From Comamonas testosteroni (GTDB lineage: Bacteria > Pseudomonadota > Gammaproteobacteria > Burkholderiales > Burkholderiaceae_C), in contig NZ_CP129672.1 in assembly GCF_030505195.1 (NCBI RefSeq), forward strand, positions 5,490,501-5,554,500: 64,000 bases of DNA, given 5' to 3'. The notes beneath the pieces were generated by a model, which saw only the letters and a list, made by a program, of their open reading frames with translations, ran no database searches and was not told the origin of the DNA. The position numbers and the translations under genes are program-made. The stretch's first letter is position 1, and every line of letters begins with the position of its first letter. Shown here piece by piece: positions 2,423-60,262 of this stretch.

Positions 2423-2459
2423 AGCTGAACTCTTTGTTGAAAAAGCAAGGAGTTTTGCG

Positions 2460-3294: not shown

Positions 3295-3320
3295 GTGCTT
3301 GTCCAAAGACCTGCATAGAG

Positions 3321-3353
3321 AAAAAGGCACAGGGCTTTGAGCAGCCTGCGCCT
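3321..3353 (-). terminator. Rho-independent terminator after prmB
   Basis: Nine-base stem (AGGCACAGG at 3325-3333 against CCTGCGCCT at 3345-3353, one mismatch) with an 11-base loop. Read on the minus strand it is followed by a run of five T. It lies 20 bp past the prmB stop, so it closes the pilU-dapE-prmB unit. Confidence 0.7.
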
Positions 3354-3372
3354 TGGGTGCGGGACAAAAAAC

Positions 3373-4320: not shown

Positions 4321-5516
4321 GCGGTCTGGGGTGCGGTCTGCTGGCGCTGGAGTTGTTCCAGAGCCTTGCGGTAGATGTTTTTCAGCGGCTCGATATCGGC
4401 CACGGCGATGTGTTCGTCGATCTTGTGGATGCTGGCGTTGGGCGGGCCCATCTCGATGACCTGAGGGCATATCTGGGCGATGAATCGGCCATCGCTGGTA
4501 CCGCCTGTGGTGGACAGCTCGGTATCGAGTCCGGTCTCATCCTTGATGGCGGCTTGCACGGCCTGCACCAGGGTGCCTGGCGTGGTCAGAAAGGGCTGCC
4601 CGCCGACGGTCCAGACCAGCGAGTATTCGACGCCATGACGGTCCAGGACCTCATGCACGCGTTTTTGCAGGGAGTCGGAGCTGGACTCGGTGCAGAAACG
4701 GAAATTGAAGTCGATCACCACATGGCCGGGAATGACGTTGCTGGCGCCCGTGCCGCCATGGATATTGCTGATCTGCCAACTTGTGGGCGGGAAGAACGCA
4801 TTGCCGCGGTCCCAGACCGTGGTCGCGAGTTCGGCGAGTGCGGGCAAGGCCTCATGAATGGGGTTGCGTGCCAGTTGCGGATAGGCGATATGACCTTGCA
4901 CGCCGTTGACGGTGAGCTTGCCACTCATGGTGCCGCGGCGGCCGTTCTTGATCATGTCGCCGGTCTGTTTGACCGAGGTAGGTTCGCCCACAATGCACCA
5001 GTCCAGGCGCTCGCCGCGTTGGCGCAGCTCTTCGACCACGACCTTGGTGCCGTCAATCGAGGGGCCTTCCTCGTCGCTGGTCAGCAGCAGGGCGATATCG
5101 AAGGCGGGTTCGGGCGTGGCCTGGAGAAACTCTTCCAGCGCCACGACAAAGGCGGCGATGGAGGTCTTCATATCGCTGGCACCACGGCCGTAGAGCTTGC
5201 CGTCGCGGTGCATGGGCACGAAAGGCGGGCTGGTCCATTCCTTGAGCGGGCCGGGCGGCACCACATCGGTATGGCCGGCAAAGACCAGCACAGGCCTATC
5301 TGAACTGATGGCGTCTTGTGTAGATTGATTCTGCGTTGGAGAGCGTTTTGCCCACAGGTTTTGTACGCGGAAGTCTGCGGGGCCGCTATCCAGGCGCTCG
5401 CAGGTAAAACCCATGGGTGTCAGGGCATCGGCGAGCAGCTCAAGGCAGCCAGCATCTTCGGGGGTGACGGAGGGCAGGCTGATAAGCTGCTCGGTCAGTT
5501 GCAGTGTCCGGGACAT
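4317..5516 (-). CDS. dapE: Succinyl-diaminopimelate desuccinylase
   Basis: 399-aa M20-family metallohydrolase that removes succinate from N-succinyl-L,L-diaminopimelate, in the lysine/peptidoglycan pathway. Metal-site motifs are visible: [11 protein letters not shown] (about residue 85), GRGASDMK (about 115) and [11 protein letters not shown] (about 150), with a C-terminal GTSDGRF motif. There is an insert of about 15 residues after the N-terminal strand ([16 protein letters not shown]) compared with usual DapE length. The gene is co-oriented with pilU upstream and prmB downstream (ATGA overlap), near dapC and dapD. Confidence 0.96.
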
Positions 5517-5565
5517 GGAGGGGCTTCAAACTAAAACAATGCCTGGGTCGCCTTGGCTGGCGGCT

Positions 5566-6735
5566 TCAGGCGGTTCTGACATCCAGGGTGATTTCCGTGA
5601 AGGACGGCATATCGTCATCGCCGGGCAGAATCACATCGGTGACGGCTGGGGCTTTGGCAGCAGTGGCCGCGTGGCTGACGTCATTATCCATGCGCCACAT
5701 CAGATTGGTGGGCGAGTCGGCATAGGCCAGCGCTTCACTGCGCTCAATTGTGCCACTGCGCACCAGGGCTGCCAGGGCGTCCTCGAAGGTCTGCGAGCCT
5801 TCGGCCATGGATTTCTCCATGGCCTCCTTCACGCCACCGAAGTCACCCTTGACGATCATGTCGCTGATGAGCTTCGTGTTGAGCATGACTTCCACGGCCG
5901 GCACGCGCGTGCCGGTGACGGTACGGACCAGGCGCTGAGAGATCACGGCTTTGAGCGAGGCGGCCAGCTCGCCCAACATGCTGGGGCGAACCTCCTCGGG
6001 GAAGAAGGACAGGATGCGATTGAGCGTGTGATAGCTGTTGTTGGCATGCAGGGTTGCCAGGCACAGATGGCCGGACTGGGCATAGGCCAGTGCGGCCGAC
6101 ATGGTCTCGCGGTCGCGGATTTCTCCGATCAGAATCACATCGGGTGCCTGGCGCAGCGCATTTTTGAGTGCGGTTGCGAGGGTACTGGTGTCAGTGCCGA
6201 CCTCACGCTGGTTGACGATGGATTTCTTGTTGCGAAACTGGTATTCGATGGGGTCTTCCACTGTGAGGATGTGGCCGGTGAGCGTTTCGTTGCGCTCGTC
6301 GATCATGGTCGCCAGTGTCGTGCTCTTGCCCGAGCCCGTTGCTCCCACAACCAGCACCAGACCGCGCTTTTCCATGACCAGTTCGCTGACGATGTCGGGC
6401 AGATTCAGTTCATTGCGCGACGGAATCTGATACGAGATAAAGCGCACGACCACCGCATAGGAGCCACGCTGGCGCATGGCGCTAATACGAAAACGTCCTA
6501 TGCCGCTCAGGGGAATGGCCATGTTCAGCTCGCCCGTCTGTTTGAGCTCTTCTATGGCTTCAGGCTTGACGACCTCGGAAAGCAAGGCCAGCGGAGCTTC
6601 GACTGGCAGCTCCTGATTGTTGATGGGGATGCAGATGCCGTTGATCTTGATCAGCGCCGGCGCACGGGCGGAGAGATAGACGTCCGAGGCCTTTTTTTCG
6701 GACATCAGACGCAAAATTTTTTCCATGGTGCTCAT
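5566..6735 (-). CDS. pilU: PilT/PilU-family type IV pilus retraction ATPase
   Basis: 389-aa hexameric secretion ATPase. It has an N-terminal PAS-like domain, Walker A GATGSGKSTTLA at about residue 130, an Asp box, Walker B VILIGEIRD, and a His box around LATLHANN. Length and C-terminal tail fit PilU better than PilT. It powers or assists pilus retraction at the inner membrane. An AAAGGAT ribosome site lies 9 bases before the ATG at 6735; a second ATG at 6726 is possible. No pilT partner is adjacent; the gene sits between dapD and dapE, a placement I recall from other comamonads. Confidence 0.9.
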   Translation of the reverse strand: MSTMEKILRLMSEKKASDVYLSARAPALIKINGICIPINNQELPVEAPLALLSEVVKPEAIEELKQTGELNMAIPLSGIGRFRISAMRQRGSYAVVVRFISYQIPSRNELNLPDIVSELVMEKRGLVLVVGATGSGKSTTLATMIDERNETLTGHILTVEDPIEYQFRNKKSIVNQREVGTDTSTLATALKNALRQAPDVILIGEIRDRETMSAALAYAQSGHLCLATLHANNSYHTLNRILSFFPEEVRPSMLGELAASLKAVISQRLVRTVTGTRVPAVEVMLNTKLISDMIVKGDFGGVKEAMEKSMAEGSQTFEDALAALVRSGTIERSEALAYADSPTNLMWRMDNDVSHAATAAKAPAVTDVILPGDDDMPSFTEITLDVRTA

Positions 6736-6837
6736 TTTTTCTTCATCCTTTTTCGCTCAGCCTCTCTTTGGACGCATGTTAGCGTGTGTCAACTCGGTGC
6801 AGGTCGCGCTTGATGCGCAAAGCAGATCTAGGGCATG

Positions 6838-6871
6838 AAAAAAGCCTGCACGCTCGGGAGCGGGCAGGCTT
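6838..6871 (-). terminator. Terminator after dapD
   Basis: Perfect 8-bp stem (AAGCCTGC at 6842-6849, GCAGGCTT at 6864-6871). On the minus strand it ends in a run of six T. It separates dapC-dapD from pilU-dapE-prmB, so the latter needs its own promoter in the roughly 100 bp before 6735. Confidence 0.75.
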
Positions 6872-6932
6872 GTGAGCGGGGTGGCCACGGCAGTGTCTGC
6901 ATCAAGGCAGAGCAAGCATGGTCAGGGGCCCA

Positions 6933-7766
6933 TCAGTCGCGCAGCAGGTCGTTGATGCTGGTCTTGGAGCGGGTCTGTGCATCCACGCGCTTGACGATGA
7001 TAGCGGCATACATGGAGTAGTCCTTGCCATCCTTGGTCTGCTTGGGAATGTTGCCGCTGACCACCACGGAGCCGCTGGGCACGCGGCCGTAGGTGATTTC
7101 GCCGGTTTCGCGGTTGAACAGAGGGGTGGACTGGCCGATGTACACGCCCATGCCCAGAACGGAATTCTCTTCCACGATCACGCCTTCGACCACTTCAGAG
7201 CGGGCGCCGATGAAGCAGTTGTCTTCGATGATGGTGGGGTTGGCTTGCAGGGGCTCAAGCACGCCGCCCAGGCCCACGCCGCCGGACAGGTGCACGTTCT
7301 TGCCCACTTGAGCGCAGGAGCCCACGGTGGCCCAGGTGTCGACCATGGTGCCTTCGTCCACATAGGCGCCGATGTTCACATAGGAAGGCATCAGGATGGC
7401 GCCCTTGGCGATGAAGGAGCCGCGACGGGCCACGGCCGGAGGCACCACGCGCACGCCTGTGGCAGCGATTTCGGCCTCGCTCATGCCTTCGAACTTGGTG
7501 GGGACCTTGTCGAAGAAGTTCAGGGCACCGCCGTTGATCAGGGCATTGTCCTTGAGGCGGAAGGACAGCAGCACCGCTTTCTTGATCCACTGGTGCACGG
7601 TCCACTGGCCCACACCTTCACGGGTGGCCACGCGCAGCTTGCCGTCGTTGAGCTCGGCAATCACGTGCTCCACGGCATCCACCACTTCCTTGGGGGCGGC
7701 GGAAGGCGAGATATTGGCACGGTTGTCCCAGGCGTTGTCGATGATGGATTGCAGTTGTTGCGTCAT
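6933..7766 (-). CDS. dapD: Tetrahydrodipicolinate N-succinyltransferase
   Basis: 277-aa enzyme, close to the 274 aa of the E. coli enzyme. The N-terminus [16 protein letters not shown] is followed by left-handed beta-helix hexapeptide repeats ([25 protein letters not shown] and neighbours). It transfers succinyl from succinyl-CoA to tetrahydrodipicolinate. The ATG at 7766 is preferred over an in-frame upstream start at 7826 because it matches the family N-terminus. It lies 81 bp after dapC, with a hairpin in between, and is followed by a strong terminator. Confidence 0.95.
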
Positions 7767-7815
7767 GATGTTTTCGGTCAAGGATCGAAAGTTGAGGTGA
7801 ATCGTTGAGTCATGA

Positions 7816-7838
7816 AAGGCCTGCACACAGCAGGCCTT
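7816..7838 (-). terminator. Hairpin between dapC and dapD
   Basis: Perfect 9-bp stem (AAGGCCTGC, 5-base loop, GCAGGCCTT). On the minus strand it is followed only by TTTC, so it is an attenuator-like or mRNA-stabilising hairpin more than a full terminator. Confidence 0.5.
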
Positions 7839-7847
7839 GGATGTGGA

Positions 7848-9053
7848 TCAGCGGGTACGGGATTCGATGAATTGTGCAATACGCTGGGCGGCTTCAAGGC
7901 ATTCCGCCGTTTCGGCCACCAGAGCCATGCGAATGCGATTGGCGCCGGGGTTGAACCCCTGAGCCTCACGCGCAAGGTAGCTGCCTGGCAAGACCGTCAC
8001 GCCTGTATGAATATACAGCTCTTTGGCGAATTGTGCATCATCCATGCCCAACTCCGATGGAATGCCTGCCCAGAGATAGAAGCTGGCATCGGGCAGCTTC
8101 ACGTCCATGACTTGGGACAGCACGGGCGTGACCTGCGCAAACTTCTCGCGATAAAGGCGGCGGTTTTCCTGCACATGGGCTTCGTCGCCCCAGGCCGCAA
8201 TCGATGCCGTCTGCACCACGGGACTCATGGCGCCGCCGTGATAGGTGCGATAGAGCAAGAAGGACTTGAGCAGAGCCGCATCACCCGCCACAAAGCCGCT
8301 GCGCAGTCCGGGCACATTGCTGCGCTTGGACAGGCTGGTGAACATCACCAGATTCTTGAAGTCATGGCGGCCCAGCTTTTGGGCAGCTTCCAGACCGCCC
8401 AGCGGGGCTTCTTCCTGGAAGTAGATCTCGCTGTAGCACTCGTCGCTGGCAATCACGAAGCCATGCCTGTCGGACAGGGCAAACAGCTTCTCCCATTCGC
8501 CGAGCGGCATCACTGCGCCCGTGGGGTTGCCGGGCGAGCACACAAAAATCAGCTGTGTGTGTTGCCATACCTCCTCGGGCACTGCATCCCAGTTCACGGC
8601 AAAGTTGCGCGCAGCATCGCTGGCAGCGTAATAGGGGGTGGCTCCGGCCAGCAGCGTCGCACCTTCGTAGATTTGATAGAAGGGGTTGGGGCAGATGACA
8701 CGCGCACCGGCCTTGGTGTTGTCCACCACGACCTGGGTGAAGGCAAACAATGCCTCACGCGAGCCATTGACGGGCAGAACCTGAGTGGCAGCATCCAACT
8801 CGATTCCATAGCGCTGGTTGGCCCATTTCGCACAGGCCTGGCGCAAGGCCGGCAGACCGGCGGTGGCAGGGTAAACGGACAAGCCCTGCAGTTCGCTGCT
8901 CAATGCTTTTTCAATGAACTCCGGCGTGGCATGGCGTGGCTCTCCGATGCCAAGACTGATAGGGCGCAGGCCCTCAGGTGGTTGAGCCGAGGCAAACAGT
9001 TGGCGAAGACGTTCAAACGGATAAGGCTGTAAGCGCGAGAGCAGGGGGTTCAT
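7848..9053 (-). CDS. dapC: Succinyldiaminopimelate transaminase
   Basis: 401-aa fold-type I PLP aminotransferase. The PLP lysine sits in SLSKRSNVPGLRSGF (about residue 240), with the upstream CSPGNPTGAVMP motif and the substrate-arginine region NRIRMALV near the C-terminus. It converts N-succinyl-2-amino-6-ketopimelate to N-succinyl-diaminopimelate, the step between DapD and DapE. Adjacency to dapD supports this over other aspartate-type aminotransferases. It is first gene of the leftward unit and divergent from the MCP gene at 9243. Confidence 0.93.
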   Translation of the reverse strand: MNPLLSRLQPYPFERLRQLFASAQPPEGLRPISLGIGEPRHATPEFIEKALSSELQGLSVYPATAGLPALRQACAKWANQRYGIELDAATQVLPVNGSREALFAFTQVVVDNTKAGARVICPNPFYQIYEGATLLAGATPYYAASDAARNFAVNWDAVPEEVWQHTQLIFVCSPGNPTGAVMPLGEWEKLFALSDRHGFVIASDECYSEIYFQEEAPLGGLEAAQKLGRHDFKNLVMFTSLSKRSNVPGLRSGFVAGDAALLKSFLLYRTYHGGAMSPVVQTASIAAWGDEAHVQENRRLYREKFAQVTPVLSQVMDVKLPDASFYLWAGIPSELGMDDAQFAKELYIHTGVTVLPGSYLAREAQGFNPGANRIRMALVAETAECLEAAQRIAQFIESRTR

Positions 9054-9242
9054 AGGTACACATTATGGGCTGATGCCATTTTCGCATGAGAAAACAGCGC
9101 TCATAGTTTTGAGTTTGCGGGTTTGCAGGCTCCGGTAATTGCAATTTGTTACGTAAGCTGGGCGACAGAGCAAGTGGCTACCGTGAGCGAGCTGCGAGGT
9201 CAGCAAACGAAGTCAACAACAAAAAACGAATGGAGACACGCA

Positions 9243-10736
9243 ATGCAAAAGCGCATCTTGCCCGACAAAAAAAACCGCGTACGAGTGAGGAATTCCGGAC
9301 TGTTGTGGTTGGGGCTGCCATGGCTGCTGGCGGGGCCTGTTTTGCCTGTGCTGGGCCTGGGCGGGACATGGCAACTGGGCTGGTTGCTGCTGTGGGTCAT
9401 GGGAGTGCTGTTGTGGGTCGGCACTCTTCACAGGAGCTGGCAGCAGCAGTGGCTGGACATGCAGCTTACGCTTGAAAGAGTCGCTCATGGAGACCTGAGT
9501 CTGGGCGTCGCCGGAGAGCCGCAACAAGGGCTTTCCGCATCAAGCCTCACCAAGTCCATGGTGCAGGCGCTGTCGGCCATGGTGGCCGATGTTCGCAGCA
9601 ATGCGGCCCTGGTGGCCCAGGCTGGACAGAGTATGGTCAAGGACCATCAGGCCTTGTCTGAACGAACCGAGATGCAGGCGAGCAATCTCGCGCAGACAGT
9701 GGTCAGTGTCGAGCAACTCACCGCAGCGGTTGAGCAAAATGCGGAAGTGAGCAAGGCAGCACATTCCCGCGCTGACGGCGTTTGTGCCGCTGCCGATCAG
9801 GGCGCCCAAGCCATGCAGCATGCGGTGCAGTCGGTGGAGCTGATCGAGCGCAATGCCGGGCGCATGCGGGAAATCATTGGCGTGATTGACGGCATCGCCT
9901 TCCAGACCAATATTCTTGCCCTGAATGCAGCGGTGGAGGCAGCCAGAGCCGGTGAACAGGGGCGTGGCTTTGCTGTGGTGGCCAGTGAGGTGCGCACGTT
10001 GGCCCAGCGCAGCGCCGAAGCAGCCAAGGAGATTAGACAACTGATCGGCGAGACCGTGCAGCAGGTCACTCAGAGCACGCAGCAGCTACGCAGTGCAGGC
10101 GAGGAGATCCACGGAGTGACGCGGGCCATTCACGATGTGGTCGCCCATATGGGGACGCTTGCGGACACGGCCAGCAGCCAGAGCTCCGGTCTTCAGGAAA
10201 TCAGCAATGCCGTGCGTCAGATCGATGAAATCACCCAGAACAACGCCCAGATGGTAGGTCAAGCGCTTCAGCAGGCGCAGGAGTTACAGCTGCGCGCCCG
10301 GCATCTGTCGGATGCGGTGTCGCGCTTCAGGCTGCAGCAGGGCACGGCCGAGGAGGCGGTGGCTCTGGTGAATGCGACCATGCGACAAGCCAAGAGCTCG
10401 TCCAGCGTTGCCAGCCTGCTGCAGACGGTCACCGATCCCTCGCAGCCGTTCCACGACCGCGACATGTATGTGTTTGCCCTGTCTTCCGAGGGGGAGTACC
10501 GGGCCTTCGGCGGTAACCCAGCCAAAGTAGGGCTGCGCGTTCAGGATGTGCCCGGCATCGACGGTGACAGTCTGATGGCCGACATCATGGCGCAGGCCGA
10601 GCTTCGTCCGGGCTGGGTGGAATACGACTACATCAACCCCAGCAACCAGCAGGTGCAGACCAAGATGTCCTATGTCTGCAAGCATGCAGACTTGTACTGG
10701 GGCTGCGGTGTCTACAAGAGCCTGGTCAGTGCCTAA
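9243..10736 (+). CDS. Methyl-accepting chemotaxis protein with C-terminal Cache-like domain
   Basis: 497 aa from the ATG at 9243, chosen because GGAGA lies six bases upstream; an in-frame ATG at 9123 would add 40 residues. Two membrane helices (about residues 18-60) are joined by a very short loop, so there is no periplasmic sensor. The cytoplasmic part has the conserved MCP hairpin ([20 protein letters not shown], about 222-241) for CheA/CheW contact. After it, residues about 395-497 form a Cache-like domain ([34 protein letters not shown]) placed in the cytoplasm. The ligand is unknown. No CheR-binding pentapeptide is seen. Confidence 0.9.
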
Positions 10737-10826
10737 TGCGGTCCTGATTGGCACTTGTCGCCACTGATTTGTTTCTGCATTGGGAGCGCAAGCGTTTTTT
10801 TTCAAGCGCTGGAGGCTGATTGGGTA

Positions 10827-11501
10827 TCAGGCTCCTGCGCGCAGGGCTTTAGCCCTGGCCAAAATGGCTGCAAGCGTGGCCTTTTTGTCTGTGGGGGGCG
10901 TTGACGGTGTGTCGGCTTGAGCGCCAGCTCCTTCAACTGGGGTTTGTGCCGTGGTGCGTACCGGTGCGTTGGCCTTGCGACCCGTACGCAGCAAATGCGC
11001 GCAATAGCGGCTGCGGGCCTGCTCGGCCTGCTCAGTACTCCAGGCGGACCAGCCTGTGGCTTCAGAGCTGGCATTGACCAGCTCTATGCAATCAACGGGG
11101 CAGACAGGAATACACAACTCGCAGCCCGTGCAATGCTCGGCAATCACGGTATGCATGCGCTTGTTGGCACCCAGAATCGCATCGGTAGGGCAGGCCTTGA
11201 TGCACAGCGTGCAACCTATGCACCAGGCCTCGTCTATCACGGCCAGGGCACGAGGCGCTTCCAAGCCGTTTTTGGCGTTGAGCGGCAACTCCAGCCTGCC
11301 GGTGATGGTCGCGAGACGGCGCACGCCTTCCTGGCCGCCGGGGGGGCATTGGTTGATGGAGGCTTCTCCGCTGGCAATGGCCTGGGCATAGGACGCGCAG
11401 TCGGGATAACCGCAGCGCGTGCACTGTGTCTGGGGCAGAGCTGCATCAATGTTCGCAGCCAGTGCTTGAAGCGAGGAGGCTGCGGACATGGATGAGTTCA
11501 T
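10827..11501 (-). CDS. RnfB/RsxB-like ferredoxin
   Basis: 224-aa iron-sulfur protein. It has an N-terminal Fe-S domain with the [13 protein letters not shown] motif (about residues 27-39), then two 4Fe-4S ferredoxin motifs ([12 protein letters not shown] and [12 protein letters not shown], about 95-135) and a low-complexity Ala/Lys tail. RnfB's N-terminal membrane helix is missing, which is the usual form of the stand-alone proteobacterial homologue. It probably carries electrons for a cytoplasmic reductase; no other rnf/rsx genes are nearby. It begins 17 bp after phaZ on the same strand and may be co-transcribed. An alternative ATG lies at 11489. Confidence 0.85.
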
Positions 11502-11518
11502 TCTGGTCTGGTGAGCCT

Positions 11519-12952
11519 TTATGCCCTGGCGCGATACGAGCCGCGTCCTTTCTGGGCAAGGGCGCTATTTTCACCTGTTTTCGCGGTCTTGGCAGGCTTG
11601 TCGGCATGGGCCTCATGGCTTTCCAGCTCGGCCCCGTCATCGCTGACGCTGCTCAGGTGACCGGCGGCACTGGCGGCCGTGGCGCTCGCGGGCTGGTGTG
11701 ACAGGATAAAGTCGCGCACCTGGGGGTAGACAGTCTTGCGCCAGCGGCTGCCGCTGAAGATGCCGTAGTGGCCGGCTCCTTGCACTTCGATATGGTGGCG
11801 CGCCTCGGCAGCGATGCCGGCACACAGGTCATGGGCAGCGCGGGTCTGGCCTGCGCCTGAGATATCGTCCAGCTCGCCCTCCACCGTCAGCAAGGCCGTG
11901 TTCCTGATGTCCTGCGGGCGAACCAGCTCGGGCTTGCCTTGCTCGTTCTTGACTTTCCAGGTGCCCTTGACGAGCTTGTACTCCTGGAACACGGTGGCGA
12001 TGGTTTCCAGGTAGTAGTCGGCGTCCATGTCCAGTACGGCGTTGTACTCGTCATAGAACTTGCGGTGATGCTCGGCGCTGGCTTCGTCACCCTTGATCAG
12101 GTCCTTGAAGTAGTCGTAATGGCTGTTGGCGTGGCGGTCGGGATTCATGGCCACAAAGCCCGAGTACTGCAAAAAGCCCGGGTAGACACGGCGGCCGGCA
12201 CCGGGGTAATTGTTCGGTACTTCGTAAATGACGTTGTTCTCGAACCACTCGTAGCTGCGGGTTTCGGCCAAGTTGTTCACGGCCGTCGGTGAGCGGCGCG
12301 CATCGATGGGGCCGCCCATCATGGTCATGGACAGCGGTGTGACTTCGCCACGGCTGGCCATCAAAGAGACCGCCGCCAGCACCGGCACCGTGGGCTGGCA
12401 GACGCTGACTACATGGCACTGGCCATAGCGCCCTTGCAGATAGCGAATGAACTCCTGTACATAGTTCACATAGTCGTCCAGGTGGAATTCACCCTCGGAC
12501 AGCGGCACGATGCGGGCATTTTTCCAGTCGGTGATATAGACCTTGTGGCCTCCCAGCATGCTTTGCACGGTGTCGCGCAGCAAGGTTGCGTAGTGGCCGG
12601 AGAGCGGGGCCACGATCAGCACCACAGGCTGGCTGAGCATGAGATCCAGCGTTTCTGGGTCGTCGGAAAAACGCTTGAAGCGGCGCAGCTCGCAAAACGG
12701 TTTGTCGATCTCCACGCGCTCGCGGATGGTGACATCCACGCCGTTGACTTCGACGTTATGCAGATCGAACTCGGGCTTCTCGTAGTCCTTGCCCAGGCGA
12801 TACATGAGGTTGAAGCCCGCAGCCATGCGCTGGGCCATGGGCACCTGGCTGAAGACCGAGTGAGGGTTATTGTAGAACTTGGAGGCGGCCTGGGCAAAGT
12901 CTGCAAATGGCTCGACCATTGCGCGTTGCATTTCGTAGATCTGATAGAGCAT
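11519..12952 (-). CDS. phaZ: Intracellular polyhydroxybutyrate depolymerase
   Basis: About 477 aa from the ATG at 12952; an in-frame GTG at 12961 would add three residues. The sequence closely follows the PhaZa1-type depolymerase of Ralstonia/Cupriavidus from MLYQIYE onward. The alpha/beta-hydrolase nucleophile is Cys185 in [18 protein letters not shown] and the [15 protein letters not shown] C-terminal His region complete the triad. A 50-residue Ala/Lys-rich tail extends past the family's usual end. It mobilises stored PHB granules. A TGC/GCA palindrome lies 19 bp upstream of the start. Confidence 0.94.
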
Positions 12953-12970
12953 GGGACGCACTTTTGCGGG

Positions 12971-12991
12971 TTATGTTGCAGTGCAATATAA
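12971..12991. promoter_or_regulatory. Palindrome upstream of phaZ (PhaR/PhbF-like site)
   Basis: 21-bp near-perfect inverted repeat centred on TTGCAGTGCAA (12976-12986). It contains the TGC-N3-GCAA pattern described for PHB regulators of the PhaR/PhbF family. Position and symmetry fit an operator for phaZ. The link to PhaR is inference. Confidence 0.45.
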
Positions 12992-13088
12992 CAGCAGAGT
13001 TTGACATGCGAAGTAGTGAATTCCCTTCAAATGATGGATCTTGCAGGTATTGCGCAACGCAGGCCGGAGCTCACTGAGTTTGAAAGTA

Positions 13089-13114
13089 AAAAAGCTGACC
13101 GACGTCAGCTTTTT
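13089..13114 (-). terminator. Terminator after dusA
   Basis: Perfect 11-bp stem (AAAAAGCTGAC and its complement) with a 4-base loop and T-runs on both strands. It sits 10 bp past the dusA stop on the minus strand and upstream of phaZ. Confidence 0.85.
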
Positions 13115-13123
13115 CATGAGTGC

Positions 13124-14158
13124 TCAAAGCATCTGCTCTGCGAGCTCCCTTTGAATCTCGTTCGGTTTGGTGCGGGCCAGTTTCATGACCTCGTGCGGCG
13201 GCAGGGTCTTGAGGCGGTGATCACTCCAGACCTGCCGCCAGCGGCGTGCACCGGCGAGACCATTGCGCAGCCCCAGCATATGCCGTGCAATCGAATACCA
13301 GTGCGTGCCATGCTCGCGCGCTTCGCGCTCCATATACAGCACCATCTGCTCTTCGATCTCCTCTCGTGTGCGTTCCCTGCTCTCGTCCTGATAGTAAAGA
13401 GCATCCCAGGACGACATCCACCAGGGGTTGTGACAGGCTTCACGGCCCACCATGACTCCATCGACCTGCTTCAGCTGCTGCTGCACTACGTCGTCGGTCT
13501 TGATGCCGCCGTTAACCGCGATCGTCAGGCCCGGAAAGTCACGCTTGAGCTGAGCCACGACCTCGTAGCGCAGCGGCGGGATTTCACGGTTTTCTTTGGG
13601 GGAGAGGCCTTTGAGCCAGGCGTTGCGAGCATGAACCACAAACACCTGGCAACCTGCGTCGGCGACGGTTCCGACGAAGTCACGCACAAAGTCGTAGCTT
13701 TCGATTTTGTCGATGCCGATCCGGTGCTTGACGGTGACCGGCACGGACACCACATCTGCCATGGCCTTGACGCAATCGGCTACCAGTGCGGCCTCGTTCA
13801 TCAGACATGCACCGAAAGCGCCGCGCTGCACGCGTTCGCTAGGGCAGCCGCAGTTGAGATTGATCTCGTCATAGCCCCATTGCTCGCCCAGGCGTGCGCT
13901 GTGCGCCAGATCGGCCGGCTCCGAGCCACCCAATTGCAATGCCACAGGATGTTCTTCGGCCTCAAACCGCAAATGGCGAGCCACATCGCCATGCACCAGA
14001 GCTCCGGTTGTTACCATTTCGGTGTATAGCAGGGTGTGCTGGCTTAGCAGGCGGTGGAAGTAGCGGCAATGCTTGTCTGTCCAGTCCATCATTGGCGCCA
14101 CGCTCATGCGCCACATGTTGTCAAGTTGTTGATTTTGTTTGATGTTTTGGTCGTTCAT
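13124..14158 (-). CDS. dusA: tRNA-dihydrouridine synthase A (5' end supplied by prophage)
   Basis: 344-aa FMN enzyme that reduces uridines in the tRNA D-loop. The proton-donor cysteine is in NCGCPS (about residue 105), followed by RVQRGAFGACLM; the FMN-binding HRIGID and VNGGI motifs are present. The first 22 codons (14093-14158) lie beyond the prophage attachment core and so come from the prophage. A different dusA 5' fragment is found at 60.1 kb. The gene remains intact after integration, as is typical for elements of the dusA-specific integrase family. Confidence 0.96.
   Translation of the reverse strand: MNDQNIKQNQQLDNMWRMSVAPMMDWTDKHCRYFHRLLSQHTLLYTEMVTTGALVHGDVARHLRFEAEEHPVALQLGGSEPADLAHSARLGEQWGYDEINLNCGCPSERVQRGAFGACLMNEAALVADCVKAMADVVSVPVTVKHRIGIDKIESYDFVRDFVGTVADAGCQVFVVHARNAWLKGLSPKENREIPPLRYEVVAQLKRDFPGLTIAVNGGIKTDDVVQQQLKQVDGVMVGREACHNPWWMSSWDALYYQDESRERTREEIEEQMVLYMEREAREHGTHWYSIARHMLGLRNGLAGARRWRQVWSDHRLKTLPPHEVMKLARTKPNEIQRELAEQML
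14077..14092. repeat. attL core, 16-bp direct repeat in dusA
   Basis: CTGTCCAGTCCATCAT, identical to 60068-60083. On the minus strand it encodes MMDWT(D/G) of DusA. The two copies bound the prophage, so this is the recombination core. The exact crossover inside the 16 bp cannot be seen. Confidence 0.85.
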
Positions 14159-14244
14159 AGCATAAAAACTGTGCCGTGGTGCCTTGGAAATACGCCTTGT
14201 TTTGCCCGATTTTGCCTATAAGCTCCACTCGCGGTGCTACATTG

Positions 14245-14269
14245 AGGCACCACGAATTTCATGGTGCCT
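14245..14269. promoter_or_regulatory. Palindrome overlapping integrase start, arm-site-like
   Basis: AGGCACCA (14245-14252) and TGGTGCCT (14262-14269) form a perfect inverted repeat around CGAATTTCA. The half-site GCACCACG recurs near both att sites (14175-14182 inverted, 59959-59966 inverted, 60009-60016, 60238-60245). It is therefore either an integrase arm-binding site or an autoregulatory operator. Confidence 0.5.
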
Positions 14270-14272
14270 TGT

Positions 14273-15364
14273 ATGGGAACAATCACTCAACGCAAGAGAG
14301 CGGATGGCTCGATCTCATTTCGTGCGCAGGTCCGTGTGCGGCAGGGAAATGAGTACCTTCACGGCGAGTCCAAGACCTTCACCAGGCGAGCACTGGCGCA
14401 AGAGTGGATCCGTCGACGTGAATTCGAAATAGAGAAGGCAACTGCCAGCGGGGAGCCGATCAAGGGCCACGTCACTCTGAAACAGATACTTGAGGATTAT
14501 GTCAGCGATGCAAAAGGCATCGTGGCATGGGGGCGGTCCAAGACGGCAGACATCACCCGCTTGCAAAAGGCAAAGTTGGCGCACCGGGATGCCCGGCATC
14601 TGCGTGCCATTGACTTCATCGATTACGCCAGGTGGCGGCGCACTGAAGATGATGCAGGCCCGGCCACGGTGCTCAACGATATCGTCTGGTTGCGCCAGGC
14701 CTGCCTGGGGGCTGTGACGCGCTACGGCATGAACAAGCTGGTTCAGGAGCTGGATGCCGCCAAGCAGGAGCTGCTGCGGCTCAAGGTCATCTCCAAGCCA
14801 CGCCGGCGCATACGCCGCCTGAAGGCTGAGGAAGAGGCTGCGCTGAGGGAGTACTTTGCCAAACAAGAGGCGCGCGCCTCAATTCCCATGCTGCAGATAT
14901 TCGATTTTGCGCTGCTGACCACGCGGCGCCAGGAAGAGATCACCACGCTCAAGGTTGCCGATGTGGACTTCGGTAGTCGCGTGGGCTGGCTGGATGATGT
15001 GAAACACCCCAAGCTCAAGACTGGCAATCGACGCTGCTTTCGGATGCTGGAGCCTGCGTTGGAGTTGATCAAGCGACGTATCGAATCAGGGCAGGCCGGC
15101 GAATTGGTCTTTCCCTATAACCATCGCAGCATCGGCTCCAGTTTCACGCGTGCGTGCAAGCTTCTGAACATCCCGGATCTTCGATTCCATGATCTGCGAC
15201 ATGAGGCCATCAGCCGATTGTTCGAGCGTGGTTACAGTATTGAACAAGTGGCGCAGTTTTCTCTTCATGAGTCTTGGGCTTCATTGAAGATATATACGCA
15301 CCTTGATCCTGCAGATATACCGGAGTTGGCTGGTAAAGACAGGGAGTTACTGATGAAGACGTGA
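14273..15364 (+). CDS. int: Tyrosine recombinase, dusA-specific integrase
   Basis: 363 aa from the ATG at 14273, preferred over the ATG at 14261 because the homologous copy at 60263 begins at the matching GTG (VGTITQRK). The N-terminal arm-binding domain spans about 1-60 and a core-binding domain 65-150. The catalytic domain has Arg in TTRRQEE (about 209), HxxR in FHDLRHE (about 296-299), His in LHESW (about 322) and the nucleophile Tyr in KIYTH (about 331). It catalyses integration and excision at dusA. It is adjacent to attL and reads into the phage. No excisionase is recognised nearby. Confidence 0.95.
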   Translation: MGTITQRKRADGSISFRAQVRVRQGNEYLHGESKTFTRRALAQEWIRRREFEIEKATASGEPIKGHVTLKQILEDYVSDAKGIVAWGRSKTADITRLQKAKLAHRDARHLRAIDFIDYARWRRTEDDAGPATVLNDIVWLRQACLGAVTRYGMNKLVQELDAAKQELLRLKVISKPRRRIRRLKAEEEAALREYFAKQEARASIPMLQIFDFALLTTRRQEEITTLKVADVDFGSRVGWLDDVKHPKLKTGNRRCFRMLEPALELIKRRIESGQAGELVFPYNHRSIGSSFTRACKLLNIPDLRFHDLRHEAISRLFERGYSIEQVAQFSLHESWASLKIYTHLDPADIPELAGKDRELLMKT

Positions 15365-15524
15365 AAAATTATAAAGCTTGGCCTGACTATCCTCAGTTAT
15401 TGCAGATGCAGTTATCTGCAATAAAGTTTTTCTAGATGGAAAATTTGGCAAGTGCCTCTTTAATTAAACCATTAGTATTTTATTAGTGAATAATAGAGAT
15501 TTACATTTGAATTAGAAATACTAC

Positions 15525-17312
15525 ATGTCCTATAAATTTCAAAAACCATTTGCATCTGGAAAATTAATGAAAAATAATAGTGTTGATTTGAGTGGTGGCA
15601 CCGTGTCTAAGTTTTCAAGACCAAAGGTGTATTTGATGGACCTTGACGCTTCGGTGAAGGAGTCATTAATTGAATCCGGAGTAAATGTAACTTCGGGGTC
15701 TTTTGGAAAAGTATATGAGGTGAGTCGAGGTTCTGATTTTGAAATATTTCTTGACTCTTCGGAGGTAAAGGGGCATGAAGAGCAGGAAATTATATTCATC
15801 GATATGAGCTACAGTGTTTCGAAATCTAGGCATGGTAAACCGGTTTTTTCCGAGGGGGAAAAGGGTATCTATATTAAACGTACCCGAGGGTTGATTGACT
15901 CTCGTGGGGTAGTTGCAAATAAACTGAGAAAGAATTTCGATAAAATAATTGCCACCGGTGGTGTGGTTGTTGTATTTGCATCTGCAAAAACCAACATGGA
16001 ACATTTTGCTGCCACATTGAATGCTGGGAGTATTTGGCATCCAGAACTAATGAATATTGATGAATGGTCATTTCTTACTGCGCTTGGAAGTCTCAAAGCT
16101 TCAGATCTGGAGGGGGAAGAAATTACAATCTGCGAAACTCGAACTTCCTTAGGTAAGGTGCTGGCCGCAAGATCCGCTGAAATGCGCTTTGAGTGCACTA
16201 TCGACCCTGATTTTTACTCGGAAAAGCAGTGGGTTACTCTTGCAAAAAATAAGTTTGGCGAAACTGTTGCATTGGAGAGAGTCTATCCAGATGGTGGGGC
16301 GGTAATCGTTCTGCCGCAAATTTCAAATAAGGCAGATTTTATTAAGCAGATGCTTATGGAGGTTTTTCCGGAGCGATTTCCTCATCTTTTTCCTGGAATT
16401 GAAAAAGGGCGATGGACTCACTTACCAGAGTACGAACTTTCAAATGTGAAACAAATGTGCGAAGCACGAGAGAAAGAAGTTGAACGACATAATCGGGAAA
16501 TGGATCGAATAGCTGCTGATATTGGGGCTGCTCGCCAGGCTGATGGATGGTTGCACGAGCTTCTAACCCAAACTGGCGATCCGTTAGTAGCGGCTGTTAT
16601 CAAAGCTCTCGGCGAAATTGGCTTTGATTCGGTTGTGGATATGGATGAGATTCTTGATAAGGAAAACCGGTCTCGACGCGAAGATCTTCAAATAAGAGAC
16701 AAAAGTCCTACATTGGTTGTTGATATTAAGGGTATCAGCAGTTATCCTAGTGATGAAGACACAATGCAGGCGTCAAAACATGCTGCACTTGTTATGCGTG
16801 AGGAAAAAAGAGTCAATGTAAATGGTCTTTCGATTATTAATCACCAGAGGCATTTAGCTCCTTTGCAACGAGACAATGATATGCCATTTAGGGCGGAAAT
16901 TGTGGAGGTTGCCAAACATCATGAGTATGGATTAATTACTACATGGGATATTTATAAACTATTGATGAATAAACGTAGGCACTCATGGGATGCAGATAAA
17001 GTAATTCCAGTTTTATACCGGCATGGTCGAATAGAAGCAGTCCCTGGGCACTACATTTTTATCGGTTGTATTACTAAGGTATGGGAGCATTCTTTTGGGG
17101 TCGATATTGTAGGTGGCTCATTGAGCGTGGGCGATACGGTGGCGCTTGAATATGAAATATTCTTTGAAGAGTCTGTTGTTGAATCTCTGCAAGTTGAAGG
17201 TAAAAGCAAGCAAGAAGCAATTTTCGGAGATAAAACGGGTATTCCTTGGCCTATTTCTCTGCCGCGTCCTCGTAAGGGAATGCGGGTCTTTGTCATCAAG
17301 GCTGGTGGTTAG
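15525..17312 (+). CDS. AT-rich cargo gene: PD-(D/E)XK nuclease-like protein with C-terminal beta-barrel
   Basis: 595-aa protein of unknown family, clearly AT-richer than its neighbours and flanked by 160-195 bp gaps, so a transferred single-gene cargo. The N-terminal alpha/beta region (about 85-160) has hydrophobic strands IIFIDM and VVVVFASA. A helical linker follows at about 300-340. Residues about 355-430 look like a restriction-endonuclease fold: D387 in REDLQI, then D400-I-K402 in LVVDIKG, then Q415. The last 70 residues (FGVDIVGGSLSVGDTVAL, VESLQ, GDKTGIPWP) resemble domain 2 of EF-Tu-type factors. An anti-phage role is inferred from position and domains. Confidence 0.7.
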   Translation: MSYKFQKPFASGKLMKNNSVDLSGGTVSKFSRPKVYLMDLDASVKESLIESGVNVTSGSFGKVYEVSRGSDFEIFLDSSEVKGHEEQEIIFIDMSYSVSKSRHGKPVFSEGEKGIYIKRTRGLIDSRGVVANKLRKNFDKIIATGGVVVVFASAKTNMEHFAATLNAGSIWHPELMNIDEWSFLTALGSLKASDLEGEEITICETRTSLGKVLAARSAEMRFECTIDPDFYSEKQWVTLAKNKFGETVALERVYPDGGAVIVLPQISNKADFIKQMLMEVFPERFPHLFPGIEKGRWTHLPEYELSNVKQMCEAREKEVERHNREMDRIAADIGAARQADGWLHELLTQTGDPLVAAVIKALGEIGFDSVVDMDEILDKENRSRREDLQIRDKSPTLVVDIKGISSYPSDEDTMQASKHAALVMREEKRVNVNGLSIINHQRHLAPLQRDNDMPFRAEIVEVAKHHEYGLITTWDIYKLLMNKRRHSWDADKVIPVLYRHGRIEAVPGHYIFIGCITKVWEHSFGVDIVGGSLSVGDTVALEYEIFFEESVVESLQVEGKSKQEAIFGDKTGIPWPISLPRPRKGMRVFVIKAGG

Positions 17313-17507
17313 AAATATTCCATGCTTATCTAGCCTAACTATTCTGAAAAAGAAATGTATCGTTAAATGGATGCTTAGTTTCTCTAGGTCATCCAATGTG
17401 ATGCATAACGGATTGCTGGGATAGGTTTCTAAGGTAAGTCTTGGCAAATCATATGAATCGTTCTTTTGATGACGCACGCCGAACTGCAATCGCCAAATCG
17501 TCTGGTG

Positions 17508-17759
17508 TCAGCACCTCACAGCTCTCCATTCCTGTTCAGCCTGAATCTTCTTCTGATCGATGTACGCAGCCAGCTTGCTCGCGTCCATGAACCACTGACT
17601 CTTGTTGGACCCCAGCCGATAAGCAGGCACAGGCAATGCCTGCCTATTCGCTGCCTCACCCGCTTTTTTGGGGCTTAGGCCGAAGAACTCCATGCAGCAT
17701 TTCTCCAGCGGGATGTTCACGTCGCCGTAGATGGCGAGCAGTGCGAAGTGTGTGTTCAT
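17508..17759 (-). CDS. PrtN-family transcriptional activator
   Basis: 83-aa protein with the pattern of the pyocin activator PrtN family: MNTHFALLAIYGDVNIPLEKCC, FGLSPKKAGEAANRQALPVPAYRLG, and a C-terminal helix (FMDASKLAAYIDQKK). In Pseudomonas PrtN switches on pyocin genes. Here it is the last gene of the leftward operon starting at 21922, with a 4-bp ATGA overlap with the ASCH gene. It may activate late or lysis genes of this phage; the target is inference. Confidence 0.75.
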   Translation of the reverse strand: MNTHFALLAIYGDVNIPLEKCCMEFFGLSPKKAGEAANRQALPVPAYRLGSNKSQWFMDASKLAAYIDQKKIQAEQEWRAVRC

Positions 17760-18175
17760 GGTGCGGCCCTCTCTTTATGCTCAGGCGCTGAGAGCACGTC
17801 CTTGGGGACGTTGAAGAAGTTGAGCTTGCCCTTCCAGGGCTTGAACTCGATGGCGCGGCTGTTGCGCAGCACAAAGGCCCAGCTGCCTTCCTGCTTCCAC
17901 TTGGAGGGGTGCTCCTGCACGCAGTCGGTCACATGCGTCCAGCCTACAAAGCCGCCGCGCCGCAGTTCGTCGTAGTCGGGCAGATCTGCGGGCAGCAGGC
18001 CCATGCCGTCCAGCTCCTGCACGACCTGGTCGTAATAGGCGCGGGTCAGGGTCAGGCCTGCGTGGATGAGCAGGCGGCCGCGAAAGTTGGTGGGCCAGTC
18101 GCGGTTTTCTATGTCCTTGTGGCCGTTGACGATGAGCCAGGCCCAGGGTTGGCGAATGCTGAGGGCGGGGATCAT
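17756..18175 (-). CDS. ASCH-domain protein
   Basis: 139 aa. The N-terminus MIPALSIRQPWAWLIVNGHKDIENRDW is the hallmark of ASCH domains, a PUA-like fold that binds RNA or modified nucleosides; GRLLIHAG and GFVGWTHVTDCV follow. Phage ASCH proteins are poorly understood and may act on transcripts or modified bases. ATGA overlaps on both sides place it in the leftward operon between the ParB-like gene and prtN. Confidence 0.85.
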   Translation of the reverse strand: MIPALSIRQPWAWLIVNGHKDIENRDWPTNFRGRLLIHAGLTLTRAYYDQVVQELDGMGLLPADLPDYDELRRGGFVGWTHVTDCVQEHPSKWKQEGSWAFVLRNSRAIEFKPWKGKLNFFNVPKDVLSAPEHKERAAP

Positions 18176-22405: not shown

Positions 22406-23008
22406 ATGCTGGAGACCCCGTATTACGAGTCGCAGCCCAGTGTCATCCTAGGCTTTCACGGCTGTGACGAAAAAGTCGGCATGCGTATCCTTTGCGATCC
22501 CGAGGAACATCTCACGCCGTCGGCCAAGAGCTATGACTGGCTGGGCAGCGGCATATATTTCTGGGAAGGCAGCTTGGCTCGTGCATGGGATTGGGCAAGA
22601 AGCTATGAGTCCAGGGGAAAGATCAAGAAGGCCTTTGTGCTGGGGGCTGTGATCGACCTCAAACACTGCCTTGACATGTTCGATTCCGGTTCTTCCGAGC
22701 AGGTCTTGGCGGCGTACCAGTCCCTGGAATCCTTCATGCACCAGTCTCAGACGCCTATGCCCGAGAACACGGGGGCTGCGGCGCTGGACAAACCCGCCCG
22801 CCATCTGGATTGCGCAGTCATGAACACCCTGCATCAGATGCGCAAGGACAGAAAGCTGCCCGCCTACGATTCGGTGCGTGGTGCCTTCCTAGAGGGCAAC
22901 GCGATTTACCCCGATGCGGGCTTTCGTAGCCACACGCACATTCAGATCTGCGTGCGCACGACAGCCTGTATCAAGGGCTATTTCAAACCCATCAATGCTC
23001 AAGCATAA
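22406..23008 (+). CDS. Putative ADP-ribosyltransferase-fold toxin
   Basis: 200 aa. An N-terminal GFHGCD motif (H18), then SYDWLGSGIYFWEGSLARAWDWA (Y51, E54), matches the H and Y positions of PARP/diphtheria-toxin-type ADP-ribosyltransferases. Near the C-terminus FLEGNAIYPDAGF (E163) and SHTHIQICVRTTACIKGYF could provide the third motif and core strands. It would use NAD+ to modify a host macromolecule; the target is unknown. It is preceded by a small basic protein two bases away. The family assignment is from motif pattern only. Confidence 0.55.
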   Translation: MLETPYYESQPSVILGFHGCDEKVGMRILCDPEEHLTPSAKSYDWLGSGIYFWEGSLARAWDWARSYESRGKIKKAFVLGAVIDLKHCLDMFDSGSSEQVLAAYQSLESFMHQSQTPMPENTGAAALDKPARHLDCAVMNTLHQMRKDRKLPAYDSVRGAFLEGNAIYPDAGFRSHTHIQICVRTTACIKGYFKPINAQA

Positions 23009-23023
23009 GCGACTGCTTTCCAG

Positions 23024-23917
23024 TCAGGCGACGCGGCGCTCTTTACTGGAAACACGCTCCGCTGCAGCCATGGGGTTGGGCTCTGTTCGAGCGACAATTT
23101 TTTGTCCGTCAGCGAGTGCCAGAACCTGATTGATGGCCCGTTTCTGAATGGGATCGTTCCGATCTCCAACCATCAGCAATTCAAAGATCTCGGGCTTCTC
23201 GTCTTCCAGCAAGCCGATTTTTTTGCTGGGTTTTTTGAGAATTCGCTTCAGCGCCGAGAGCTCGAATAGCTTGCCATAGGCTCGTTCCGTATTGCCCTCC
23301 AGTCCTCGAACATTGCTTGTGACCTGCAGAAAATAGCAAGCATAGTTCTGCCCCAAAAAATCTACTTGGAGTGGATGGGTCTCTCCGCCCAACGTGAGCT
23401 TCTTGTTGAAGCGTTTGGCGAGGTGCTTGGCATTTGTGTCGCGCTGGATCGCAGATTTGACGCGGCTCACAATTCCATGATTACGCTGCTGCTGTGTGAT
23501 GACATAAGCATTGAGCAGCGTATGTACGGTGCTGCATCGGCGGAGCATCAACTCCAGTGCTTCATCCGCACTAGCAGCTGAAAATCTGCTCAGATTCTCA
23601 ATACGAGCATTGGAGAATGGCGGTGTCCATGTTTCTGCTGGCTGATGCTTCCAATGCTCCAGCAAGGAGTTGCATAGATGCTGTGCCACGGTGTGCAGCG
23701 CCTGTCCAGCCACGCCGAAAGCGTGCTCCGCCTTACGCTCATCGATGGCGCAAATTGCTTGTACATAGCCATCTTCAGTGCGAACGACTACGCCAGCGCA
23801 TAACTTTTCCGAACTGGTGGGCTTCGGAGCGAACTCAATTACTGCGCGCCAGCCACTGACTCGTCCTTCGTTCCAGTTGACGTCAGCTTCAGTTGCGGGT
23901 GGCCAAGTCGGTTGCAT
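23024..23917 (-). CDS. Unknown protein of repressor-kinase operon, weakly DUF3037-like
   Basis: 297 aa. The N-terminal part (WRAVIEFAPKPTSSEKLCAGVVVRTEDGYV) recalls DUF3037 proteins, which often lie next to HipA-like kinases; the rest is helical and unassigned. The start at 23917 lies inside the 3' end of the kinase gene (overlap 23839-23917), so the two are tightly coupled. It is the last gene of the leftward repressor transcript. The function may be linked to the kinase; similarity is weak. Confidence 0.55.
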   Translation of the reverse strand: MQPTWPPATEADVNWNEGRVSGWRAVIEFAPKPTSSEKLCAGVVVRTEDGYVQAICAIDERKAEHAFGVAGQALHTVAQHLCNSLLEHWKHQPAETWTPPFSNARIENLSRFSAASADEALELMLRRCSTVHTLLNAYVITQQQRNHGIVSRVKSAIQRDTNAKHLAKRFNKKLTLGGETHPLQVDFLGQNYACYFLQVTSNVRGLEGNTERAYGKLFELSALKRILKKPSKKIGLLEDEKPEIFELLMVGDRNDPIQKRAINQVLALADGQKIVARTEPNPMAAAERVSSKERRVA

Positions 23918-24786
23918 AGTAGTTCGTAGGTGATGCCGAGACGCTGCTCGATAAACGTAATCAGTTCTTTAATCTGAGATTTTTGTTGCCAATGACTGGT
24001 GTCCGCGTACTCAACGATACCGGGGATATCCAATGGCCCAGCTACCTCAGCCAACCATTGGCCGAGACCTTCCAGCACTTGGTGACACTGCTCTGCTGTG
24101 AAAGTTTTCATCGGTATGGCCAATGCGTTTTCAAAAACTCCATCCGCCAACTCATTCAACGGATAAAGGGTGCGGAACGCGCCGCCAAAGGCCTCTGCGT
24201 GATCAATGATATGGAGACTCTTGTCCCTGAAGATGATGTTGCCAAAATTGCGGTCACCGTTGGCAACCCATTCATCAAAGGCAACAACTTTAGCCCAGTC
24301 TGCCCATTTAGTGAGCAAGGAAATGGCAGCTTTTTTGTCGCTGCGGAGAAACTGAAGAAAAGTGTCTCCGCCTAGATCTTTTGTTGCAACGCAGAGGGCG
24401 GCAGAGCCTTGCTTGATGAAGGCAGAGTGAGGTAGGTGACCAGGTGGAATGTGGACTATGAAAACCTCTGGCGCAGGCAAGTCAAGAATGCGGGCCAAGC
24501 ACCCACAGACTGCTTCGGCGATCAGGTTATCTGATGAACCTACTCTCAAATATAGAGAAATAGACTTCTGATCGGGGTCCGAAGAATCGTAGGCATCACC
24601 TAACCATAACTCATCAAGCTTTTCAGCGTCCGAGTCACGGGGGACCAGGCTGGCACCTTCGTTGAGAACTAGGTGCCTGATGCGCTCTGGCACAGGGACA
24701 AATGTGTCTTCATTGGCTGGTGCCAGTGAAGGCGAGTTCAAGGCGTTTGCTTGAACCGACTGGCTAGTTGGTCGATCAGTGTCCAA
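23839..24786 (-). CDS. HipA-like kinase
   Basis: 315 aa. The kinase catalytic loop FDEWVANGDRNFGN (D178, N183) and metal-binding LHIIDHAEAF (D195) match HipA/PI3-4-like kinases of the stand-alone HipA_2 type. The N-terminal region (PERIRHLVLNEGASLVPR, RVGSSDNLIAEAVCG) lacks the usual HipA N-terminal subdomain. The start overlaps the XRE gene by 49 bp, resembling hipB-hipA layout. It may phosphorylate a host factor to arrest growth or modulate the repressor. An alternative downstream start is possible. Confidence 0.75.
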   Translation of the reverse strand: MDTDRPTSQSVQANALNSPSLAPANEDTFVPVPERIRHLVLNEGASLVPRDSDAEKLDELWLGDAYDSSDPDQKSISLYLRVGSSDNLIAEAVCGCLARILDLPAPEVFIVHIPPGHLPHSAFIKQGSAALCVATKDLGGDTFLQFLRSDKKAAISLLTKWADWAKVVAFDEWVANGDRNFGNIIFRDKSLHIIDHAEAFGGAFRTLYPLNELADGVFENALAIPMKTFTAEQCHQVLEGLGQWLAEVAGPLDIPGIVEYADTSHWQQKSQIKELITFIEQRLGITYELLCNRLGHPQLKLTSTGTKDESVAGAQ

Positions 24787-60047: not shown

Positions 60048-60149
60048 TCAAATGGTTACCGTGATACCTGTCCAGTCCATCATAGGGGCCACCGATATGC
60101 GCCACATGCTGCTATCTGGTTGTTTTTTAACGGTTTGTTCGGTGCTCAT
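60048..60149 (-). pseudogene. dusA 5' fragment displaced by integration
   Basis: From the ATG at 60149 it reads MSTEQTVKKQPDSSMWRISV then APMMDWT, clearly a second DusA N-terminus, different from the one now in dusA. It is cut at the attachment core and runs into 6 foreign codons and a stop. It was the dusA start before this phage inserted, itself carried by an earlier element. Confidence 0.85.
60068..60083. repeat. attR core, 16-bp direct repeat
   Basis: Identical to 14077-14092. To its left is phage sequence; to its right is the displaced dusA 5' fragment and the second integrase. Confidence 0.85.
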
Positions 60150-60262
60150 ACTATGAAAAGTGCCTTGTGGTGCACTGAAAATTGACCCTGTTTCACCCCG
60201 TTTTGCCGGGTTTTTTGACGCTGAATGCTACATTGGTGCACCACGAATTTCATGGAGCACTG

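Follow-up and report, generated by a model that had tools for sequence, protein, structure and literature searches.

A putative defence nuclease of new domain architecture in a Comamonas testosteroni prophage, with relatives in restriction operons

The window, that is, the whole 64,000-nucleotide stretch of Comamonas testosteroni DNA that was analysed, contains a prophage of approximately 46 kb that occupies the 5' end of dusA and is bounded by a perfect pair of 188-bp repeats. The features that define the prophage and the gene of interest are as follows.

13124-14158, minus strand: dusA, named from its translation
14077..14264: attL-side copy of the 188-bp repeat, over the dusA 5' end
14261..15364, plus strand: tyrosine integrase of the prophage
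15325..17507, no strand assigned: cargo slot; in congener prophages, homology ends near 15324-15339 and resumes from 17507/17508, the DNA in between being different
15397..15424, plus strand: terminator-like hairpin of 12 pairs between the integrase and the gene, from a consensus scan only
15525..17312, plus strand: the 595-aa gene of interest, which may instead start at 15567
60068..60255: attR-side copy of the 188-bp repeat, 45,991 bp from the attL-side copy

Between the repeats lie genes for the integrase and for ParB-like, primase, terminase, head-protease, tape-measure, and tail proteins. The gene of interest is the first gene past the integrase, and its composition is distinct, with a GC content of 0.42 against 0.60 for the window and a third-position GC content of 0.35 against 0.66 for the integrase. 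The consensus scan found five terminators against a shuffle mean of 1.6, and a promoter scan was uninformative (five found, 4.9 expected). A broken remnant was rejected as an explanation for the ORF, which is a 595-aa open frame with an intact catalytic pattern. At the other end of the prophage, a second integrase (phrog_1, E 1.3e-25) at 60182-61195 starts inside the attR-side repeat, and its DNA is 86% identical to that of the first, so that a second element seems to be stacked in the same site. This second integrase is followed by an AlkZ-like glycosylase gene (61360-62505, minus strand).

The gene had been described as single-gene cargo in an earlier note made from the sequence, and comparison with congeners bore this out. 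Within the genus, the integrase DNA found a match in 14 of 53 genomes including this one, and four congener stretches (L044, L045, L046, and L047) were compared with the window. In L044 and L045, homology stops at 15324 and 15339, respectively, and resumes at 17508, and the slot between these shared flanks holds different DNA. The L045 slot (L045:1369-2779) carries two AT-rich ORFs of 294 and 177 aa with a GC content of about 0.31-0.39, neither of which gave a useful PDB match. The L044 slot (L044:1567-3231) carries, on the opposite strand, a 554-aa ORF that begins like a lipoprotein and gave strong collagen-like matches. In L046, the match resumes from 17507 and the integrase side is nearer to the integrase of the second element (92% versus 82%), and in L047 only the integrase matched the window. 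Because two congeners share the flanking backbone but differ in slot DNA, the slot exchanges cargo, and the collagen-like ORF of L044 indicates that it is not reserved for defence genes.

Several other ORFs of the window were also recorded. Near the attR end, an AT-rich ORF at 58312-59310 (plus strand) encodes a PLD-like domain (PF13091, E 3.6e-6), matched no PHROG and no phage record by tblastn, and is possibly a second cargo gene. The 200-aa ORF at 22406-23008 (plus strand) is weakly matched by PD-T4-9_A in PADLOC (best E 7.8e-5) and also by a PHROG of unknown function (phrog_14664, E 3.6e-25). A HipA-like kinase (HipA_2, E 5.2e-12; PADLOC PDC-M66A, E 2.7e-8) at 23839-24786 (minus strand) overlaps the end of the ORF at 23024-23917. 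The DNA of a 139-aa ORF at 17756-18175 (minus strand) matches several phage genes annotated as ASCH-domain proteins, and a 209-aa ORF at 34175-34804 (plus strand), within a GC dip, has a sub-threshold HepT-like match (E 1.9e-4).

Based on an AlphaFold2 model and structural comparison, three domains are predicted in the 595-aa protein, which in order resemble a sensor, a FokI-type nuclease, and part of a translation factor. All of the following lie on the plus strand.

15615..16394, residues 31-290: class-I glutamine amidotransferase (GATase) / ThuA / IFT52 (GIFT)-like domain, which may serve as a sensor or regulator
16440..16568, residues 306-348: long helix, a probable coiled coil from the AlphaFold2 secondary structure
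16569..17042, residues 349-506: predicted FokI-like PD-(D/E)XK nuclease domain
16683..16685: codon of D387 (134/134 proteins), which follows the invariant E386
16722..16730: codons of D400-x-K402 (D/E in 134/134, K in 134/134)
17055..17300, residues 511-592: predicted EF-Tu/SelB domain-2-like barrel

The earlier note had read the protein as a nuclease joined to a barrel; both parts were upheld by the model and the structural comparison, and the N-terminal domain had been overlooked. For the nuclease core previously proposed around D387 and D400-x-K402, the predicted structure contains a restriction-endonuclease fold, the absence of which had been named as a result that would speak against the proposal. 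Its closest folds in structural comparison are the DNA-cutting FokI and Nt.BspD6I, at a sequence identity of only 10-13%, and Foldseek alone gave no significant match for this domain. Compared with FokI and Nt.BspD6I, the protein lacks a FokI-type site-recognition domain and has no PF02384 methylase nearby, and it possesses the predicted N-terminal GATase-like and C-terminal EF-Tu-like domains instead.

The active-site pattern D ... (D/E)-x-K is present in all 134 retrieved proteins, query included. D387, K402, G403, D410, K418, N439, and R449 are each kept in 134/134, Q415 in 133/134, and D400 in 129/134 with E in the other five. A chance match was rejected on the ground that residues are invariant across the 134 proteins. 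The nuclease is the best-kept of the three domains in this set, with 39 of its 158 columns at least 95% identical, compared with 27 of 260 in the N-terminal domain and 9 of 86 in the barrel. Six plasmid or phage relatives at 17-25% identity align with the protein over its full length and retain E386, D387, K402, G403, K418, and N439; position 400 is occupied by D or E.

The C-terminal segment, which had been likened to EF-Tu domain 2, is backed by both the predicted structure and weak sequence matches. The model shows the domain-2 barrel fold of GTP_EFTU_D2 (PF03144). By sequence, 10 of 32 members of the protein family match this Pfam entry at E <= 10, the best reaching 4e-4, and the protein of the window does not. 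A barrel-only profile searched against PDB sequences returned 23 rows at E <= 10, comprising 19 translation factors, one Pbp11, and three pyruvate-dehydrogenase acetyltransferase-type chains. Each sequence match is weak by itself since the best PDB row, SelB, reaches only E 0.016; the likeness to domain 2 of SelB, EF1A, and eIF5B is one of fold, and weakly of sequence. The nearest barrels are domain 2 of EF-Tu, SelB, and eIF5B, the C-terminal domain of U32 peptidases, and Pbp11, a name that occurs in none of the open-licence PMC papers listed. In contrast to EF-Tu-type proteins, the barrel here lacks a GTPase domain and is joined to a nuclease. The class-I-glutamine-amidotransferase/ThuA/GIFT-like domain at the N-terminus is proposed to act as a sensor or regulator. 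Of two cysteines considered for the catalytic position in a GATase nucleophile elbow, C119 is common in other members and missing from the protein of the window, and C224 is kept in 133 of 134 proteins but sits within a strand and is lacking in the plasmid branch.

Homologues number in the hundreds, with 327 proteins at E <= 0.001 retrieved by the single sequence and 310 by profile A2, and no named family covers the protein of the window: it has no Pfam, PADLOC, or NCBIfam match at E <= 1 and one chance-level PHROG match (E 0.24). PDB sequence searches with the single protein or profile A2 gave chance rows only. No Pfam domain was found among the matches listed (the best 120 of 327 and the best 120 of 310), and the label "CBS-domain protein" carried by one homologue in one source found no support in this analysis. 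The occurrence of the gene is patchy, with counts of 1/53 genomes in the genus, 3/399 in the family, 1/399 in the order, 1/398 in the phylum, and, with profile A2, 1/369 in the class; these counts include the own genome, and the top three candidates were scored for most genomes. Assemblies of Planctomycetota, Cyanobacteriota, and Candidatus Eisenbacteria also contain relatives, as do plasmids of Klebsiella, Serratia, Pantoea, and Synechocystis. Among viral contigs, the protein alone matched none, profile A1 found one, and profile A2 found six including that one; blastn with a Klebsiella relative matched none of the E. coli genomes.

The neighbourhoods of close relatives were compared at 16 loci (14 from the homologue search, L015, and the window), and a Pfam scan covered 55 selected locus ORFs, further loci included. 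Three of the 16 copies are embedded in type I restriction operons, and two of these, in L004 and L011, stand between hsdS and hsdR.

L011: hsdM 686-2275, hsdS 2265-3590, the gene 3590-5389, hsdR 5386-9030, neighbours overlapping by 1-11 bases
L004: hsdM 6108-7679, a 216-aa ORF, hsdS 8563-9915, the gene 9920-11704, hsdR 11712-14927
L013: EcoEI-type hsdR 7567-9984, the gene ORF to 11788 (start uncertain), hsdM 11799-13316, YhcG nuclease 13313-14470

In L011, the gene overlaps hsdS by 1 base, its ATG overlapping the hsdS stop, and hsdR by 4 bases. The 6.08-Mb genome has one PF02384 match, outside the window at C1:4,060,326; by a rough chance estimate, a random gene would therefore rarely fall inside such an operon. 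The type I RM trait needs two changes on a 24-row tree and thus more than one event, and the RM label is not significantly clustered on this tree (50 of 500 shuffles as low), which has long branches and four open forks. The tree omits L006 (partial), L027 (short frame), L029 (a near copy of L028), L030, and the duplicates L016-L018, of which L017 and L018, being on contigs of equal length to those of L001 and L009, were taken as their duplicates.

Other relatives also have defence genes or mobile elements as neighbours. Abi_alpha (E 4e-24) and an integrase are neighbours of the relative in L001. On a Klebsiella plasmid (L020), pifC and a KAP NTPase lie just upstream and a gene annotated as "Abi family" lies downstream, the latter with no Pfam match. 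In L027, the relative (8015-9040) follows a phage GPA gene and precedes portal and terminase genes on the other strand, which corresponds to the P2-like gpA-portal interval; with an open frame of just 341 aa, it is probably a defective copy. In P2-like phages, the interval between gpA and gpQ (portal) is described as a defence hotspot (PMC9122126). L015, a viral contig, carries tail-fibre genes as well as a NACHT protein roughly 2.7 kb away, and L023 is a phage-like plasmid by annotation. Metabolic or housekeeping genes occur among the scanned neighbours at L002, L006, L007, L008, L009, and L012, for example, a purH-type gene (L002), glycosidases (L007), and a helicase with DUF3418 (L009). In addition, a colicin-like bacteriocin gene (Cloacin, Cytotoxic; L028:6159-7757, minus strand) lies about 1.3 kb from the relative in L028, a viral-collection record that is possibly a plasmid, and a NadS/RelE-type toxin-antitoxin pair lies directly 3' of two Klebsiella plasmid relatives (L030:2498-3128 and L022:2331-2961).

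The defence association of the family is therefore real but partial. The expectation that homologues would sit in defence islands holds for the type I operons (3/16), the P2 hotspot, and the pifC/KAP and Abi_alpha loci, and it does not hold for several ordinary neighbourhoods. The defence reading of the earlier note thus stands in part, and the link to type I restriction operons, the strongest functional clue, had been missed. The case named against that reading, homologues confined to phage structural contexts, was not encountered, since several lie in defence contexts; the possibility that relatives are phage structural genes only was rejected, as many are chromosomal or plasmid-borne and three lie in type I restriction operons.

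PrrC consists of an ABC-ATPase plus a HEPN-type nuclease, and prrC is positioned between hsdS and hsdR. Embedded in EcoprrI, PrrC is freed on T4 infection and cuts tRNA-Lys (PMC3874165, PMC12707154). The relatives in L011 and L004 are likewise embedded in a type I operon, and a guard role is proposed for them. In contrast to PrrC, the copy in the window is outside any restriction operon, unlike the relatives in L004, L011, and L013, and the protein has a predicted FokI-like fold and no Pfam family at E <= 1, with no ABC-ATPase plus HEPN-type nuclease composition. The hsdS-hsdR interval also serves as a site for other defence genes, namely DarTG2 and an RNA-binding/AAA pair (PMC12255303); the operon slot is shared with the L004 and L011 relatives, and the genes are unrelated. 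The combination of domains, for whose nuclease-barrel pairing the earlier note knew of no described defence protein, was not found in the main text of open-licence PMC papers, where the nearest system is CoCoNuT, in which one predicted OB-fold, in type III-A CnuH, is reported to resemble EF-Tu domain II (PMC11090510). A coiled coil, a nuclease, and an EF-Tu domain II-like fold are predicted features in common; compared with CoCoNuT, a single gene is found here, and the protein has no McrB GTPase or helicase domain by Pfam.

Based on these results, the gene, a prophage cargo, may encode a latent, infection-triggered defence nuclease that most likely cuts DNA (probability about 0.52). It is probably an undescribed defence nuclease because some relatives lie in restriction operons and in a known phage-defence hotspot. 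Counted in favour of the defence reading were the predicted nuclease fold with its conserved active-site residues, its likeness to DNA-cutting enzymes, the patchy occurrence, the type I operons, the P2 interval, the pifC/KAP and Abi_alpha neighbours, and the cargo slot; counted against it were the ordinary neighbours, the collagen-like cargo of L044, the unclustered RM label, the lack of a PADLOC match, the lack of a Foldseek match for the nuclease domain, and the "Abi family" gene of L020 without a Pfam match. In the proposed mechanism, the protein would be held inactive until infection, when the GATase-like N-terminal domain and/or the translation-factor-like barrel could sense a sign of infection. 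The coiled coil could then pair two FokI-like nuclease domains, which would cut phage or host DNA and thereby stop the infection or kill the cell. A nuclease that stays inactive until a trigger arrives, and that may have to pair in order to cut, is suggested by the FokI-like core, the long helix in front of it, and the absence of a linked PF02384 methylase; since the sole PF02384 methylase gene is far away, a latent enzyme that protects its own cell is a better fit than a constantly active one. In hosts with the type I operon, the protein may form a second line behind the restriction system or, by analogy with PrrC for EcoprrI, act as its guard.

DNA is favoured as the target because the fold relatives are DNA enzymes, and the barrel would also allow a less likely RNA or translation target. 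A guard acting at the RNA level is a tentative alternative, in which, on sensing infection or inhibition of restriction, the PD-(D/E)XK domain would cut RNA where the barrel is docked (on tRNA, tmRNA, the ribosome, or a translation factor), making the protein a structural analogue of PrrC. The fold-level likeness of the barrel to domain 2 of SelB, EF1A, and eIF5B is consistent with such docking; however, the best nuclease matches are DNA enzymes, and the EF-Tu domain-2-type barrel family occurs outside RNA binding too. Precedents for an RNA-level guard come from three papers: the position of the L011 and L004 genes between hsdS and hsdR is that of the defence genes in PMC12255303, PrrC within the EcoprrI operon cuts tRNA-Lys (PMC3874165), and EF-Tu domain II-like folds are reported in the predicted RNA-targeting CoCoNuT (PMC11090510).

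Alternatively, the protein could be a modification- or sequence-dependent restriction enzyme without a methylase partner, in which the barrel or the N-terminal domain reads a modified base or site and the FokI-like domain cuts. The fusion of a predicted FokI-like cleavage domain to putative recognition domains and the absence of a PF02384 methylase in the window by PF02384 search argue for this explanation, which is nevertheless unlikely, as neither end domain resembles a known modified-base reader among the matches listed. It is improbable that the protein is a nuclease of phage biology (DNA processing, recombination, homing, or superinfection exclusion as a side effect) with no selected defence role: several relatives come from prophage or phage-plasmid records, but many are chromosomal or plasmid-borne, and three lie within type I restriction operons. 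Most improbable is a regulator or scaffold whose catalytic pattern is real and whose nuclease fold no longer cuts, because D387, D/E400, K402, and K418 are kept in 134/134 proteins.

The placement of relatives in type I operons and a P2 hotspot, together with the prophage cargo slot, makes this family a good candidate for a new defence effector, and hundreds of homologues of the predicted three-domain nuclease lack a family name in Pfam, PADLOC, NCBIfam, and PHROG. With a FokI-like nuclease predicted to be fused to a translation-factor barrel, the protein prompts the question of whether bacterial restriction has guards that read translation via an EF-Tu-like module. Speculatively, the barrel could, in the manner of EF-Tu/SelB domain 2, bind a ribosomal site or the tRNA acceptor end, with the GATase-like domain supplying a second signal; phage interference with translation or with type I restriction could then break or alter this contact and free the FokI-like nuclease. 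If true, this would make the protein a FokI-fold equivalent of PrrC, linking restriction to how translation is faring. If the barrel is merely borrowed for DNA or protein binding, the protein would still be a new single-gene effector with clear active-site residues.
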